Shown: one piece after another, positions 26,169-38,918 of the stretch
How positions within the stretch are numbered: the stretch's first letter is position 1
Layout of the letters: each line of letters opens with the position of its first letter
From: Crocinitomicaceae bacterium
GTDB lineage: Bacteria; Bacteroidota; Bacteroidia; Flavobacteriales_D; Crocinitomicaceae
Reading direction: 5' to 3'
NCBI GenBank assembly: GCA_024643365.1
Contig: JAHENC010000018.1
Coordinates: 1 to 64,000 of the forward strand
Length of the DNA stretch: 64,000 nucleotides
Position numbers and translations under genes: made by a program
Notes under the pieces: model-generated
Told to the model about the DNA's origin: nothing
Databases searched by the model: none
The model's input: the letters and a program-made list of their open reading frames with translations, nothing else

Positions 26169-26280
26169 GCAAATTTTTTCTTGTAAATATTTTTCTTTGT
26201 CCAAACATTTTTTGATGAAATGTGTTAAGTGTATATCGCAAATAAAATAGCAAACATTTTTATATTGATAGTAATACTAT

Positions 26281-26288
26281 TATATTTG
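26281..26288 (+). promoter_or_regulatory. -7 promoter element of the tetR-ABC-hlyD-tolC operon
   Basis: TATATTTG matches TAnnTTTG, 19 bases before the TetR ATG. It lies in AT-rich DNA where a self-acting repressor could bind. Confidence 0.6.
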
Positions 26289-26307: not shown

Positions 26308-26988
26308 ATGAATCAACTGTTTTCAAAAATGTCCATTCAGATGAATGAGCATTTATACCTGAAAGATCCAACTTCTTCGGATTTAGGACAGAAAATCCTA
26401 CGTGGAAGTATTTCCTTGATTTCATCTTTAGGTTTTGAGAAATTCACCTTCAAGAAACTAGCAATTGAAATTGATACAACAGAAGCCTCCATTTACCGAT
26501 ATTTTGAGAGTAAGCAGAAAATTCTGCTTTATTTGATTAATTGGTATTGGTCCTGCATGTGGTTTCGCATTCACATGGGAACGCAAAACATACCCGATGC
26601 AGAAGTTAGGTTGAAAAATTGCATTCATATCCTCACGGCTATTCCAGATCCGACGCAGGAACTTGTACTTGATAACGAATTGGAATTAAAGCAAATTGTC
26701 ATCAATGAGTCTTCAAAGGTACTCTTGACGAAGAATGTAGATGATGAGAATAAAAATGGAGCATTCACAGAATACAAAAAAGTGGTGGAATTTGTATCGT
26801 CGATTATTCTTGAAATTAATCCAACATATGAATTCCCTAACATGCTTATATCTACGATGATTGAGGGAAGTAATCAACAGCGCTTTTTTGCAGCTCATTT
26901 GCCTCGTTTGACAAATATGAACCAACACGATGACCTTGTAGAGTCATTCTTTACTGAAACCTTATTAAAAGTAATCAAACATGGATAA
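26308..26988 (+). CDS. TetR/AcrR-family transcriptional regulator
   Basis: A 226 aa DNA-binding regulator, first gene of an exporter operon. The N-terminal helix-turn-helix is at about residues 30-75, with GFEKFTFKKLAIEIDTTEAS and the recognition-helix end IYRYFESKQKILLYL. The C-terminal ligand domain is helical and family-specific, with no known ligand. Its last 8 bases overlap the ABC gene, so regulator and exporter are translated together, suggesting autoregulation by the compound or stress that the exporter handles. Being the first gene rather than a divergent one is notable. Confidence 0.9.
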   Translation: MNQLFSKMSIQMNEHLYLKDPTSSDLGQKILRGSISLISSLGFEKFTFKKLAIEIDTTEASIYRYFESKQKILLYLINWYWSCMWFRIHMGTQNIPDAEVRLKNCIHILTAIPDPTQELVLDNELELKQIVINESSKVLLTKNVDDENKNGAFTEYKKVVEFVSSIILEINPTYEFPNMLISTMIEGSNQQRFFAAHLPRLTNMNQHDDLVESFFTETLLKVIKHG

Positions 26989-28681
26989 CCACATTCCTTC
27001 AATCGTTGCACGGTTTTGGTCGATGCTTCGTCCGGACCAAAAAGAAATCCGAAACATTTATCTTTTTTCCATATTTAGTGGGATCTTATCATTGGGATTA
27101 CCCTTAGGAATTCAAATGATCATTAATTTCATTGAATTGGGACAAATGAGTACCTCGTGGTTTGTCCTGGTGATTTTAGTGGTTTTATCTATTGGATTCT
27201 CCGGACTATTGAACATTTTTCAATTGCGGATTACCGAGAATTTGCAGCAGCGAATTTTTACGCGTTCCGCCTTTGAGTTTGCCGAACGAATTCCATTGAT
27301 TCGCTTAACTGAGTTGATGAGAAAATATGGTACGGATTTAACACATCGCTTTTTTGATACCTTGACCATTCAAAAAGGATTGTCGAAGCTTTTAATTGAT
27401 TTTACGGCAGCAATACTTCAATTGGTATTTTGCCTTGTTTTATTGTCTTTCTACCATAGTTTTTTCATTTTTCTCGGTGTTTTTCTTGTCTTCACACTTG
27501 GACTCATCGTTCGTTTAACCGCACGTCAAGGGATGTTGGCAAGTTTGGAAGAGTCAAGTTACAAGTATAAAATTGCCCATTGGTTGAAAGAAATTGCTCA
27601 AGCACGTTTCAGTTTTAACCTCTCTGGGAACCGAAAGTTTCACATTTACCGAACGGACGACTACGTGCAAGGATATTTGTCAGCGCGTGATCAGCATTTT
27701 AAGGTATTAGTCAAACAATATGCGTATTTGATCATTTTTAAGGTTTTGATTGCACTTTCGTTCCTGATTATTGGTGGAATTTTAGTCATCAATCAACAAA
27801 TGAACATCGGTCAATTTGTTGCATCAGAAATCCTCATTTTACTCATCTTAAGTGCCGTTGAAAAATTGATTCTGAGTATTGAAGTCGTGTATGATGTATT
27901 CACGGCCATAGAAAAAATTGGACAAGTGACGGATTTGCCTATTGAACTTTCGAACCAACATCAAGAGGATTTGGATGTGACAAAAGGTCTTTCTATTCAG
28001 TTTGACCAGGTTACTTGTCAACTGGAGTCCTATGAGTTAAGTCCCTTATCGGAGATTCAGTTGCAGATTCATCCAGAGGAGAAAATCGCCATTATCAGCG
28101 ATTCTTCCCTTTCAAGTAGTTTGCTTTTTTGCTCCCTCGTTGGAATAATGGAATGTTCTAAAGGAACGATTTCCATCAATGGAATTCCGCTTGAAAACCT
28201 TAATAAACAATCCTTGAGGGAAAAAATTGGTTCGGTTCTATACCGTGATCAATTGGTTTTTGGAAGTGTTGCGGATAACATCCGTTTTGGTCGAAATGAA
28301 ATTTCCCTTTCGGAGATTGAAACTGAAATGAGTGCCTTGAATTTAACATCCTTCGTCCATTCAATGCCGGAAAAATACCAAGGAATCCTAAATCCTGAAT
28401 CACACATGATTCCAATTGATGTGGAACGTAAATTGTTGGTGGCACGAGCAATGATTGGACAACCAAGCCTATTGATTTTTGAAGATCCAACGGCTGGACT
28501 CACATCCAAACAAAAGGAGGTGCTTTTATCCTACATTTTCAAAGATGAGCAAAAAACGGTGATGGTCGCGACAACCGATCCAGCGGTATTCACTTATTGC
28601 ACAAGAATAATAGAAATTAACCAAGGCAAAATTCGCTTTGATGGTAGTTATGAATCCTTTAAGTTGACTCAATCATGTTAA
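26981..28681 (+). CDS. ABC-exporter-like membrane protein with degenerate nucleotide-binding domain
   Basis: A 566 aa fusion of a six-helix type-1 ABC exporter membrane domain (about 20-310) and an ATPase-like domain (about 335-566). The ATPase motifs are missing. The Walker A position reads SDSSLSSSLL (373-382) with no GKS/T lysine. The Q-loop position reads YRD with no Gln. The LSGGQ position reads HMIPIDVERK. Walker B ends IFEDPT instead of DEPT, and the H-loop position reads ATTD without His. The overall fold and spacing remain well conserved and the reading frame is intact, which argues against a decaying pseudogene. The next gene (hlyD) overlaps by 7 bases. It is probably the inner-membrane part of a tripartite exporter whose energy source is unclear. 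Confidence 0.88.
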   Translation: MDNHIPSIVARFWSMLRPDQKEIRNIYLFSIFSGILSLGLPLGIQMIINFIELGQMSTSWFVLVILVVLSIGFSGLLNIFQLRITENLQQRIFTRSAFEFAERIPLIRLTELMRKYGTDLTHRFFDTLTIQKGLSKLLIDFTAAILQLVFCLVLLSFYHSFFIFLGVFLVFTLGLIVRLTARQGMLASLEESSYKYKIAHWLKEIAQARFSFNLSGNRKFHIYRTDDYVQGYLSARDQHFKVLVKQYAYLIIFKVLIALSFLIIGGILVINQQMNIGQFVASEILILLILSAVEKLILSIEVVYDVFTAIEKIGQVTDLPIELSNQHQEDLDVTKGLSIQFDQVTCQLESYELSPLSEIQLQIHPEEKIAIISDSSLSSSLLFCSLVGIMECSKGTISINGIPLENLNKQSLREKIGSVLYRDQLVFGSVADNIRFGRNEISLSEIETEMSALNLTSFVHSMPEKYQGILNPESHMIPIDVERKLLVARAMIGQPSLLIFEDPTAGLTSKQKEVLLSYIFKDEQKTVMVATTDPAVFTYCTRIIEINQGKIRFDGSYESFKLTQSC

Positions 28682-30018
28682 ATCTCTCTCCACAAAACAA
28701 AAATCAGTTGAATGCAACTGAATTGAAAGCGATGAATCGGGTAGAAGGTAAGCATTCATCGAAACGATTGAAGCGTTCCATTCTCTACGGGATGGGTATG
28801 CTCTTGTTGCTGATGCTTCTTCCATGGACTCAAAACATTCGTGCAAATGGTAAGATTGTTACCTTGCGTCCAGAACAAAGACCACAAATGATTCAATCGA
28901 TTATTGCCGGGCGTATTGAAAAATGGTTCGTAAAGGACGGTGATCAAGTAAAAAAAGGGGATACGATCTTATTTTTATCGGAAATTAAGGAAAGTTACTT
29001 GGATCCAGATTTAGTTGGTCGAACGAATAAGCAATTGAAAAACAAAGAATTGTCTGTTGTTTCATACGGAGATAAAATTTCTTCGCTTGATAACCGGATT
29101 GACGCATTAATTGAAACAGGTAAGTTCAAATTGCAACAAGCGAAAATCAAGCTGAATCAATCCTATTTGAAGTTAAAAACGGATAGTATTGAATTTCATA
29201 CGACGCAAATCAATGCGCGCATTGCTGAACAACAATATGAGCGCTTTGAGAAATTATACAAAGACAACTTGAAATCCTTAACAGAAGTAGAATCGCGCAA
29301 ATTAGTGTATCAACGGGCGCAAGCATCCCAAATCGCTGCGCAACAGAAGTACTTGCAAAGTGCGAACGATATCATCGATGCAAGAGTGGAATATCAATCC
29401 ATCGAAGCGAAGTTCAAGGATGAAATCGCTAAAGCGGAATCCGATAAGTTTTCGACACTGTCCACATTGTATGACACCGAAGTGGATGTGATAAAATTAC
29501 AAAATCAAGCAGCAAACTATTCCATCCGAAATGGAATGTACTATGTCCTTGCACCACAGGACGGTATTGTCACGAAGGTACTTTCAAGTGGAATTGGTGA
29601 AACCATCAAACAAGGTGAGTCGATTGCCACTATTATGCCTCGAAACTACGATTTAGCGATTGAAATGTTCGTTCGTCCTATGGATTTACCATTACTTCAG
29701 AAAGGACAAAAAGTACGTGTGCAATTTGATGGTTGGCCAGCAATTGTGTTTTCTGGTTGGCCGACGACTAGTTTTGGAACCTTTGGAGGGTCGATTTTTG
29801 CCATTGATCAATTTGCGAATGAAGAAGGTAATTTCCGTGTTCTCATTGCTCCGGATAAAAAGGATAAAGAATGGCCAGCAGCCTTGAGAGTTGGTGGTGG
29901 GGCTAAATCAATGATTCTCTTAAATGATGTACTCATTGGATATGAATTGTGGCGAAAAATCAATGGATTCCCACCTAATTTTTATGAAACAAAAAAAATT
30001 GAAAAACCAAAGAAATGA
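28675..30018 (+). CDS. HlyD-family periplasmic adaptor
   Basis: A 447 aa membrane-fusion protein linking an inner-membrane exporter to an outer-membrane channel. One transmembrane helix lies at about residues 36-54 (SILYGMGMLLLLMLLPW). A split biotinyl-lipoyl-like domain (IAGRIEKWFVKDGDQVKKGD, and APQDGIVTKVLSSGIGE further on) surrounds a long coiled-coil hairpin at about 105-280. It overlaps the ABC gene by 7 bases and shares the ATGA overlap with tolC, so all are one operon. The long hairpin is typical of type I secretion or drug-efflux adaptors. Confidence 0.92.
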   Translation: MLNLSPQNKNQLNATELKAMNRVEGKHSSKRLKRSILYGMGMLLLLMLLPWTQNIRANGKIVTLRPEQRPQMIQSIIAGRIEKWFVKDGDQVKKGDTILFLSEIKESYLDPDLVGRTNKQLKNKELSVVSYGDKISSLDNRIDALIETGKFKLQQAKIKLNQSYLKLKTDSIEFHTTQINARIAEQQYERFEKLYKDNLKSLTEVESRKLVYQRAQASQIAAQQKYLQSANDIIDARVEYQSIEAKFKDEIAKAESDKFSTLSTLYDTEVDVIKLQNQAANYSIRNGMYYVLAPQDGIVTKVLSSGIGETIKQGESIATIMPRNYDLAIEMFVRPMDLPLLQKGQKVRVQFDGWPAIVFSGWPTTSFGTFGGSIFAIDQFANEEGNFRVLIAPDKKDKEWPAALRVGGGAKSMILLNDVLIGYELWRKINGFPPNFYETKKIEKPKK

Positions 30019-31403
30019 AACAATTCCTACTTGTAATTTCATTCTGTTTCTCGCTCTCATTTAGCTGGTCGCAAGCGGTACTCAGTGAAAAAGAGTATTA
30101 TGAACTCATCTTGTTAAATCACCCGTTAGTGAAGCAAGCTGGCATCAAACCTCAAATGGGGGAAAGTCAATTGCTGAAAGCGAAGGGTGGGTTTGATCCA
30201 AAGATGTTTTCTCAATTTGACCGTAAAAACTACGATGGAGTAGCCAACTATCAAAAAGTAAATGCCGGATTATCGATTCCAACGTGGTATGGAATTCAAG
30301 TGAAATCTGGCTTTGAATCCAATAGTGGTCCATATTTGTCGTCGGAGGATAAAACACCCGCTGGTGGACTGTGGTACGGAGGAGTTTCGGTGAATTTGGG
30401 ACAAGGAATGATGATCGACCAACGTCGGGCAGAATTGTTCAAGGCGCGAATTTACCTGGAAAGTACCTTGCAGGAACAACGATTGCTTTTGAATGAGTTA
30501 ATCTATGAATCTGGCTATGCCTATTGGAATTGGTTTTTAGCACAATACTCAAAAGAGGTTCTACAAGATTCCTATGATTTGGCACAGATTCGCCTAAAAG
30601 GTGTGAAATTAACGGCTGAACTTGGCGATCGTCCAATCATCGATACGGTGGAAGCTCGGATTCAGGTTCAGTACCGACAGTCGCTCCTGAATAATTATCA
30701 AACGGATTTATTGAACTCCAAAGTAAAACTTTCGACTTACTTGTGGACAGAACTCCAAGAGCCCTTGGAGCTAGACGAAACTACGCTACCTATAGCAATG
30801 GATTCAGTCTCCTTTGGTGTTGTTCCATTGTTGTCTGAGAGGGATATCGATTCGCTTGCGGAAAATCATCCCTATTTAACGATGAATGGTTTGAAAATTA
30901 AGACCTTGGAAATTGATCAGAAATTGAAAAGAGAACAAGTCAAACCAACGGTAAATCTGAGTTATAACTTCATCAATGAACCGATCAACTATAATCCGAT
31001 GACAAATCTAAGTCCCAACAACAATAAAATCGGTGTCCAATTCGAAATGCCTTTGCTTTTTAGAAAGGAACGAGGCGATTTGGAATTAGCTAAGTTGAAG
31101 GTGCAAGATGAGCAGTTATCCTACGTGAACAACAAAATGTACTTAAAAGCCAAAATCAAACAGGCTCAAAATGATGTGCTAAATGCACAGAATCAATTAG
31201 ATATTTACCGTCAAACGGTGTTGGACTCACGACAATTATTTGATGCGGAGAAAACAATGTTCGAACAAGGAGAAAGTTCCTTGTTTCTGGTGAATGCCCG
31301 AGAGCTCACGTATATTCAAGCGAACTTAAAATACATTGAAGTGCTCTGCAAATACCAACAAGCTCTTTTGTCCTTGCGTTTTGCGCTTGCAAACTTCATG
31401 TAG
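30015..31403 (+). CDS. TolC-family outer-membrane efflux protein
   Basis: A 462 aa outer-membrane channel subunit. It has a signal peptide (MKQFLLVISFCFSLSFSWSQ) and two repeated helical/beta halves; late segments such as NDVLNAQNQLDIYRQTV and FEQGESSLFLVNARE match OEP-type helices. ATG overlaps the hlyD stop (ATGA), showing coupled translation. With the ABC-like and HlyD proteins it would complete a tripartite export path across both membranes. The convergent LysR gene begins 6 bases after the stop. Confidence 0.92.
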   Translation: MKQFLLVISFCFSLSFSWSQAVLSEKEYYELILLNHPLVKQAGIKPQMGESQLLKAKGGFDPKMFSQFDRKNYDGVANYQKVNAGLSIPTWYGIQVKSGFESNSGPYLSSEDKTPAGGLWYGGVSVNLGQGMMIDQRRAELFKARIYLESTLQEQRLLLNELIYESGYAYWNWFLAQYSKEVLQDSYDLAQIRLKGVKLTAELGDRPIIDTVEARIQVQYRQSLLNNYQTDLLNSKVKLSTYLWTELQEPLELDETTLPIAMDSVSFGVVPLLSERDIDSLAENHPYLTMNGLKIKTLEIDQKLKREQVKPTVNLSYNFINEPINYNPMTNLSPNNNKIGVQFEMPLLFRKERGDLELAKLKVQDEQLSYVNNKMYLKAKIKQAQNDVLNAQNQLDIYRQTVLDSRQLFDAEKTMFEQGESSLFLVNARELTYIQANLKYIEVLCKYQQALLSLRFALANFM

Positions 31404-38665: not shown

Positions 38666-38750
38666 TAGCGAGACCGAGAGTTGAACTCGGGACCTTAGGG
38701 TTATGAATCCTACGCTCTAACCTCCGCCGCGGCGGATGAGCTATCACGCC
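38666..38750 (-). pseudogene. tRNA-Met copy with GC palindrome inserted in the D-loop
   Basis: Same as the intact tRNA-Met from the T-arm through the anticodon CAT, but three D-loop bases are replaced by TCCGCCGCGGCGGA (38723-38736), and an acceptor-stem base change makes a mismatch (CACGCC in place of CTCGCC). Length is 85 rather than 74. It is probably not functional as a tRNA unless the extra hairpin is tolerated. Confidence 0.82.
38723..38736. repeat. 14-bp palindrome TCCGCCGCGGCGGA, second copy
   Basis: Identical to 9895-9908. Here it sits in a tRNA D-loop; there it sits in a GA-rich tandem repeat. Confidence 0.9.
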
Positions 38751-38843: not shown

Positions 38844-38844
38844 G

Positions 38845-38918
38845 TAGCGAGACCGAGAGTTGAACTCGGGACCTTAGGGTTATGAATCCTACGCTCTAAC
38901 CAACTGAGCTATCTCGCC
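38845..38918 (-). tRNA. tRNA-Met (anticodon CAT)
   Basis: A 74-base cloverleaf on the minus strand: acceptor GGCGAGA/TCTCGCT, D-arm GCTC/GAGC, anticodon loop TTCATAA, T-arm CCGAG-TTCAACT-CTCGG. The pair next to the loop (A31-C39) is a mismatch. The 3' CCA is not encoded. The GGC start and TAGCTCAG D-arm fit elongator Met; a tRNA-Ile2 with modified CAT is less likely. It has its own terminator and is followed by damaged copies. Confidence 0.93.

Follow-up and report, generated by a model that had tools for sequence, protein, structure and literature searches.

An operon built around an ABC-fold protein that has lost its ATPase motifs

The window analysed here, the first 64,000 nucleotides of contig JAHENC010000018.1 of a Crocinitomicaceae bacterium, carries an operon of four open reading frames (ORFs), tetR, ABC, hlyD and tolC, in which the ATP-binding cassette (ABC) protein has the predicted fold of an exporter and not one intact ATPase motif. 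A previous sequence-only reading of this DNA had described the four ORFs as coupled, with overlaps of 8, 7 and 4 bases, and the ORF positions bear this out. A Pfam domain search of the encoded proteins detected TetR_N, ABC_tran, HlyD and OEP, and an ABC protein is thus co-encoded with HlyD and TolC, the combination by which type 1 secretion systems (T1SS) are recognised. The features of the locus are as follows (NBD, nucleotide-binding domain; aa, amino acids):

26267–26281, no strand: palindrome GATAGTAATACTATT, probable operator of the adjoining TetR; kept in the aligned upstream rows
26281–26288, + strand: TATATTTG, match to the Bacteroidota -7 box, TAnnTTTG; upstream alignment
26308–26988, + strand: TetR-family regulator, 226 aa; ORF, PF00440 at 2.2e-08
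26981–28681, + strand: ABC-exporter-fold protein with dead ATPase sites, 566 aa; ORF, domain search, predicted fold, motif alignment
26981–27970, + strand: membrane domain, residues 1-330, strongly conserved; conservation, identity, omega
27971–28678, + strand: degenerate NBD, residues 331-566; alignment, omega
28097–28123, + strand: Walker A position, SDSSLSSSL (373-381), without Lys; family alignment
28244–28246, + strand: Q-loop position, R422 instead of Gln; family alignment
28409–28423, + strand: signature position, IPIDV (477-481) instead of LSGGQ; family alignment
28481–28486, + strand: Walker B end, E501-D502 instead of D-E; family alignment
28574–28576, + strand: H-loop position, T532 instead of His; family alignment
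28675–30018, + strand: HlyD-family periplasmic adaptor, 447 aa; ORF, domain search
30015–31403, + strand: TolC-like outer membrane factor (OEP), 462 aa; ORF, domain search

Alignment of the family confirmed the loss of all five ATPase motifs in an uninterrupted frame, both of which the sequence-only reading had reported: the position of the Walker A Lys is occupied by S379, and the order of the Walker B D-E pair is inverted (E501-D502). Since the near relatives L140 and L144 (94-95% identity; loci carry L numbers and genomes G numbers) have lost the same five positions, sequencing error is unlikely, and we discarded it as the cause of the motif loss.

Structure prediction returned a folded NBD within an exporter-like whole. 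The model is confident (mean predicted local distance difference test, pLDDT, 92.4; predicted template modelling score, pTM, 0.85), has the type IV ABC exporter fold and resembles complete exporters, with PCAT1 (8voz; TM-score 0.89/0.88) as the first match in Foldseek. VIA-align placed HlyB of the HlyB/D complex first (8dck_B; Z 29.9, 2.6 Å, 558 residues), a rank shared with all rows within 1 Z of it, many other exporters among them. SbmA was not among the matches listed by either program and may be present further down. The ABC_membrane match of the protein reaches 15.4 bits, under the Pfam cut-off of 28, yet the predicted fold is normal. As the alignment behind the model includes relatives that keep Walker A, confidence in the NBD fold is uninformative on ATP binding. 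The protein lacks the intact Walker A, Walker B D-E, signature and H-loop expected of an ABC exporter, and to judge from its sequence it is very unlikely to hydrolyse ATP. A canonical partner could not complete an ATP site either, because the Walker and signature halves are both lost in the same chain.

Degenerate ATPase sites prevail among the relatives aligned

An orthologue was found at E < 1e-100 in 36 of 60 related genomes (own genome counted), a match at E up to 1e-90 in 125 of 299 genomes of the order, and a match at E up to 1e-60 in 99 of 392 genomes of the phylum, intact-type relatives counted. At E up to 1e-3, a scan of named genomes confirmed that at least 548 stretches encode a relative; the 80 kept include Flavobacterium, Polaribacter, Tenacibaculum, Olleya, Salegentibacter, Brumimicrobium, Roseivirga, Lewinella and Saccharicrinis. 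Gene content was read at 75 loci, comprising the window, the named-genome loci longer than 9 kb and 11 comparison loci, six of them without an NBD. TolC is encoded at 75, HlyD and the ABC protein at 74 each and TetR at 51, so that the tetR-ABC-hlyD-tolC order, which the sequence-only reading had proposed to check, proves to be conserved. No fifth conserved operon gene and no substrate gene was found among these loci, with no further gene present at more than nine of them.

We then compared motif states across 156 aligned full-length proteins, a non-random set composed of the window protein plus 32, 73 (nearest to the query), 16, 14 and 20 others, the last two subsets having been fetched deliberately from low-scoring matches; identical proteins were merged and L005 and L086 dropped as short (2 of 124). 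Degenerate sites characterise 133 of the 156, the window protein included, and none of the 133 has a complete motif set. They retain the Walker A Lys in 94 cases, the Walker B Asp in 24, the catalytic Glu in 19 (both D and E in two), the H-loop His in two and the second Gly of LSGGQ in 15, with LPRSI (12) and FSKGI (10) as recurring replacements of the signature. Within the window's own genus, the Walker A Lys is absent from all 20 loci read besides the window. The sequence-only reading had allowed that homologues might all have intact motifs and this copy merely have decayed, an objection that falls with these counts.

The remaining 23 proteins retain the Walker A Lys, Asp and Glu, and 19 of them also the H-loop His. 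By rule, 24 proteins carried Lys plus D-E, of which L100 was reassigned to the degenerate group, its His and signature being lost. Ten of the 23 combine Lys, D-E and His with a Ser-x-Gly signature; SGG occurs in none of the 156. Where flanks could be read, intact proteins (L153-L160, L164) have HlyD beside them in nine of nine cases and TolC in eight of nine, and the long degenerate proteins L161-L163 have both beside all three.

Some side observations concern individual members. Many of the intact-type proteins with readable flanks, and some degenerate ones, are longer by an N-terminal part. In the five proteins scanned (L153, L155, L161, L162 and L163) this part takes up the first 170-270 residues, and no Pfam family scored above cut-off for it. 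Genome G889 has two full-length family copies. On a plasmid of Sphingopyxis sp. 113P3, outside Bacteroidota, a distant permease relative (L221:4686-6113) runs into an IS3 transposase region within its NBD part. In Riemerella, the operon (L220; NZ_CP081938.1 18078-28794) lies amid murB, rsmI and thymidine kinase on a 102-kb record labelled plasmid; as these neighbours are housekeeping genes, the record may be a piece of the chromosome.

A sister lineage has lost the nucleotide-binding domain

The phylum search also returned frames of ~340 aa that match the membrane domain alone. Counted from the match lists, with frames of up to 424 aa taken as short, these occur in 18 of 121 genomes searched in family f14 (48 with a match) and in 32 of 101 in family f21 (95 with a match). 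We read 26 NBD-less loci, picked for short frames from three other families (L147-L152 and L199-L218; 17 from f14, eight from f21 and one from f20). At all 26, a permease of 330-351 aa is followed by HlyD and TolC on the same strand with no NBD between, the HlyD match starting ahead of the permease stop in ten; tetR lies upstream on the opposite strand in five.

With two family NBDs as queries, no split-off family NBD was among the matches listed in ten NBD-less genomes, eight of which belong to the 26 loci read. The best matches listed are ordinary full-length exporters, which align along most of the query at no more than 31% identity; stand-alone ABC ATPases rank lower, and short local matches of up to 47% over ~60 residues come from frames of ~650 aa.

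In a quick maximum-likelihood tree of the membrane domain, the 26 NBD-less rows form one clade (support of 98 in the Shimodaira–Hasegawa-like approximate likelihood ratio test, SH-aLRT), which adjoins the degenerate proteins bearing the N-terminal domain. Twenty hand-picked intact rows, namely 19 of the 23 intact-type proteins plus L192 (without the Glu), with L159 and L179 lacking the H-loop His, lie on one side of a branch with support 100. The tree is unrooted, and because the ordinary-exporter outgroup is too distant (branch 10), the direction of change rests on the intact ATPase being ancestral rather than on the tree. The relatives thus display the stages side by side, from intact Walker motifs through a dead NBD to an absent one, and genomes G838 and G868 hold NBD-less plus full-length family forms. 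The sequence-only reading had neither the complete loss of the NBD in this sister lineage nor the relatives in which Walker A and D-E are intact and HlyD is adjacent.

The permease is maintained with and without its NBD

Selection was measured as omega, the ratio of nonsynonymous to synonymous divergence, by the Nei–Gojobori method (NG86). Between the window protein and two close relatives, omega is 0.014 and 0.022 for the membrane domain and 0.095 and 0.135 for the NBD, as compared to membrane/NBD values of 0.011/0.030, 0.020/0.032 and 0.031/0.038 in three ordinary exporters at similar distance. Constraint on the NBD is therefore weaker than that on the membrane domain by a factor of about six, against 1.2 to 2.7 in the controls; the NBD is nevertheless kept as protein. 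Identity to the relative in G036 is 84% in the membrane domain and 47% in the NBD; three ordinary exporters of the same two genomes have 94/89, 97/88 and 93/84. For NBD-less permeases, four of six pairs gave a value, with omega of 0.029 to 0.046; one of these (0.034) has a synonymous divergence (dS) below 1, saturated pairs giving either no value or a dS above 1. By these ratios, purifying selection on the permease domain is strong whether an NBD is present or not. Across the loci compared, the permease remains together with the adaptor and the outer membrane channel, and selection to keep them is strong.

At the residue level, K132, K195, R236, H239, E283, K295, D305 and K312 are the same in all 26 NBD-less and all 53 other degenerate tree rows. 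The 26 NBD-less rows show no variation at R123, Q131, K132, K136, E191, S192, K195, R236 and H239, and 25 of them retain Y196; at D126 they have Asp in 22 cases, Glu in two and Gly in two, so the cytoplasmic loops are not wholly kept. In transmembrane helix 6 (TM6), E283 and K295, which occur in 19 and 15 of the 20 intact tree rows, are candidates for a polar pathway. Charged residues gained alongside ATPase loss were also sought, and none stands out.

A conserved palindrome is the probable operator of the TetR regulator

Upstream of tetR, the palindrome GATAGTAATACTATT (26267-26281) runs into TATATTTG, presumably a promoter box by the Bacteroidota -7 consensus. The palindrome is found in all 15 aligned upstream rows (window included, two genomes appearing twice). 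With up to 2 mismatches allowed, its 15-base form AATAGTAnTACTATT is present in 82 of the 101 regions upstream of tetR, as opposed to 1.15% of shuffles preserving base composition only; the 101 include the mis-cut L088 and L146, where the gene start is off the locus, and neither was scored as a match. Among NBD-less loci with tetR, L147 and L213 are part of the 82, and L214, L216 and L217 stand at 3 or 4 mismatches. In the window's own genome of 2.53 Mb, the core ATAGTAnTACTAT has a single occurrence, at the site upstream of tetR. This pattern points to the palindrome as the probable dedicated operator of the TetR protein. By eye, a sigma-factor-like ORF lies shortly upstream of tetR or the permease gene at three of the 75 loci (L068:4487-5020, L078:5432-5959 and L103:3163-3696).

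Relation to known transport systems

With HlyB-type type 1 secretion the operon shares the fold (the 558-residue match to 8dck_B), the partner genes and the gene order, and some members of the family have Walker A and D-E intact, in most cases along with the H-loop His. It differs in that the window ABC protein has no intact ATPase site and in that no linked substrate gene was seen. Scores against the type 1 NCBIfam models fall far below their cut-offs for the ABC protein (LssB 131.7 of 693.1, PrtD 110.4 of 510.15 and HlyB 91.9 of 725.55, among the best 25 families) and below them for HlyD (90.8 of 208.65) and TolC (22.5 of 225.15); by the curated models compared, the operon parts are not type 1 secretion proteins. 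Profile-based calls of T1SS in Bacteroidetes are reported by Abby et al. (PMC4793230), and some of these could be members of the window family.

SbmA has an ABC fold without an NBD and is a proton-driven importer; a history of NBD loss has been inferred for it, and its family has lost the coupling helices (PMC13316013). The window family resembles these SbmA-like peptide transporters (SLiPT; SbmA/BacA) in having an ABC-type membrane fold without a working NBD, and differs from them in sitting with HlyD and TolC. The NBD is absent, as in SLiPT, from L147-L152 and L199-L218; the window protein has a folded one in its model. Pfam SbmA_BacA was not among the matches for the window proteins (E up to 1) or for the relatives scanned, NBD-less ones included (E up to 0.1). 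SbmA is not known to have an adaptor or outer membrane partner.

Heterodimeric exporters such as TM287/288, TAP and TmrAB likewise show losses of the catalytic Glu and other motifs in one chain. They keep one working site per complex, whereas the window chain has lost both sides of the site. EmrAB-TolC is a ligand-regulated tripartite system with a HlyD-family adaptor, in which an inner pump of the major facilitator superfamily (MFS) uses secondary energy. The window system shares the tripartite make-up and the HlyD-family adaptor with it, and would be like it in ligand regulation and in the use of secondary energy; its inner pump has the ABC fold, not that of MFS. No account of ABC proteins that are ATPase-dead or NBD-less within HlyD-TolC operons emerged from searches of the open-licence PMC literature. 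On sequence grounds, the tetR-ABC-hlyD-tolC module thus appears to be a Bacteroidota export system not found described in the literature searched, in keeping with the suggestion of the sequence-only reading.

A possible tripartite exporter independent of ATP hydrolysis

That the system is not an ATPase, in the sense that its ABC-fold protein does not hydrolyse ATP, we regard as highly probable from the motif losses; the sequence-only reading had offered a non-hydrolysing module as one option, and 133 of 156 members without an intact site support it. The machine would then probably draw on some other source of energy or work passively. On this basis the operon can be read, plausibly if short of probably, as a regulated, ATP-hydrolysis-independent tripartite exporter of ABC fold, whose simplest drive would be the proton gradient, as for SbmA. 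Proton drive taken by itself is suggested by this analogy and is a tentative proposal. Equally tentative is its extension to the phylum, where the family might form a further class of tripartite exporter beside those driven by ABC, resistance-nodulation-division (RND) and MFS pumps, consisting of an ABC-fold permease turned into a secondary, proton-driven pump with its HlyD-TolC coupling kept.

In such an exporter, the inner-membrane part would be the membrane domain of an ABC exporter freed from ATP hydrolysis and placed in a ligand-regulated tripartite complex. The permease dimer would move or gate substrate into the HlyD-TolC conduit by alternating access, drawing on the proton-motive force in the way that SbmA does in a single membrane. 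The NBD of the window protein might be no motor but a remnant, still folded, by which the cytoplasmic loops are held or braced. The substrate is probably small and amphipathic, given that the operon seems to be controlled by a TetR of its own. A 4HBT thioesterase gene lies between hlyD and tolC at four of the 75 loci (L057:8978-9436, L099:9055-9444, L106:8924-9394 and L115:9035-9427), a position that weakly hints at an acyl or lipid-like substrate.

At least some members, among them one in Riemerella, carry the annotation ABC transporter ATP-binding protein, which is probably wrong on the power source. If the exporter reading holds, tripartite export would have an additional type of energy. 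The family shows stepwise loss of the ABC engine within one gene order, which opens the transition from primary to secondary transporter, or to scaffold, to study with natural intermediates.

Several observations weigh against a proton-driven exporter. The Walker A Lys is kept by 94 of the 133 degenerate proteins, and ATP binding without hydrolysis may therefore still matter there. The cytoplasmic loops that grip the NBD are largely retained in the NBD-less forms, a difference from the SbmA family; they may serve as a gate of their own or bind something else, and may thus point to a cytoplasmic partner. At two of the 26 NBD-less loci, L147 and L213, there is an ABC-type NBD downstream of tolC that is 22-25% identical to an ordinary exporter. 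Finally, most of the conserved charged residues also occur in the ATPase-intact relatives and hence did not arise with the loss of the ATPase.

The main rival, which we judge unlikely though still substantial, is a scaffold or gate: an ABC-fold protein that has lost transport and only keeps the HlyD ring in place and controls the opening and closing of the HlyD-TolC conduit, a conduit that would be fed from the periplasm or by another pump. HlyD and TolC persist where the ATPase is lost or absent, and the retained loops fit such a role as well. HlyB is reported to hold HlyD in a complex made up of three HlyB dimers and six HlyD (PMC11026475), and the first-ranked VIA-align match of the window model is HlyB of this complex (Z 29.9, rows within 1 being tied). 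Conservation nevertheless extends over the whole membrane domain, TM6 E283 and K295 included, a wider reach than an anchor seems to require.

It is improbable that the protein works in a heterodimer or mixed complex together with an active ABC exporter whose gene lies elsewhere in the genome, the partner envisaged by the sequence-only reading. Degenerate half-sites are common in heterodimeric exporters (PMC7756269), and a search of the window's own genome at E up to 0.001 gave 12 matches, the query protein counted. With Walker and signature sides both lost in one chain, however, a canonical partner would form no complete site; no dedicated NBD was among the matches listed in the ten NBD-less genomes, and no linked partner is conserved in the 75 loci. 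The sequence-only reading is thus sustained on non-hydrolysis, gene order and an undescribed system, and not on an active ABC partner.

Quite improbable, too, is gating by ATP binding without hydrolysis, in which the Walker A-keeping relatives would act as a channel or switch and the window genus would be further derived. Retention of the Lys in 94 of 133 and the recurrence of LPRSI and FSKGI in place of LSGGQ speak for it; the Lys is missing from the 20 same-genus loci besides the window, and the NBD-less forms lack the whole site. Recent decay towards a pseudogene would agree with an NBD evolving faster than the membrane domain and is extremely improbable, given omega of 0.095 and 0.135 in the NBD and 0.014 and 0.022 in the membrane domain, an intact frame and a degenerate state shared by 133 of 156 members throughout the phylum; with omega so far below 1 and conservation so wide, decay of a single copy is ruled out.

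A tRNA match beside tRNA-Met elsewhere in the window

On the - strand of the window, between 38660 and 38930, an intact tRNA-Met (38844-38918) is adjoined by a second Rfam tRNA match (38666-38750). ARAGORN did not find the second, in which, by eye, a palindrome replaces the D-loop region. Between the two lies a fragment that, again by eye, resembles the 5′ part of a tRNA and carries another palindrome.

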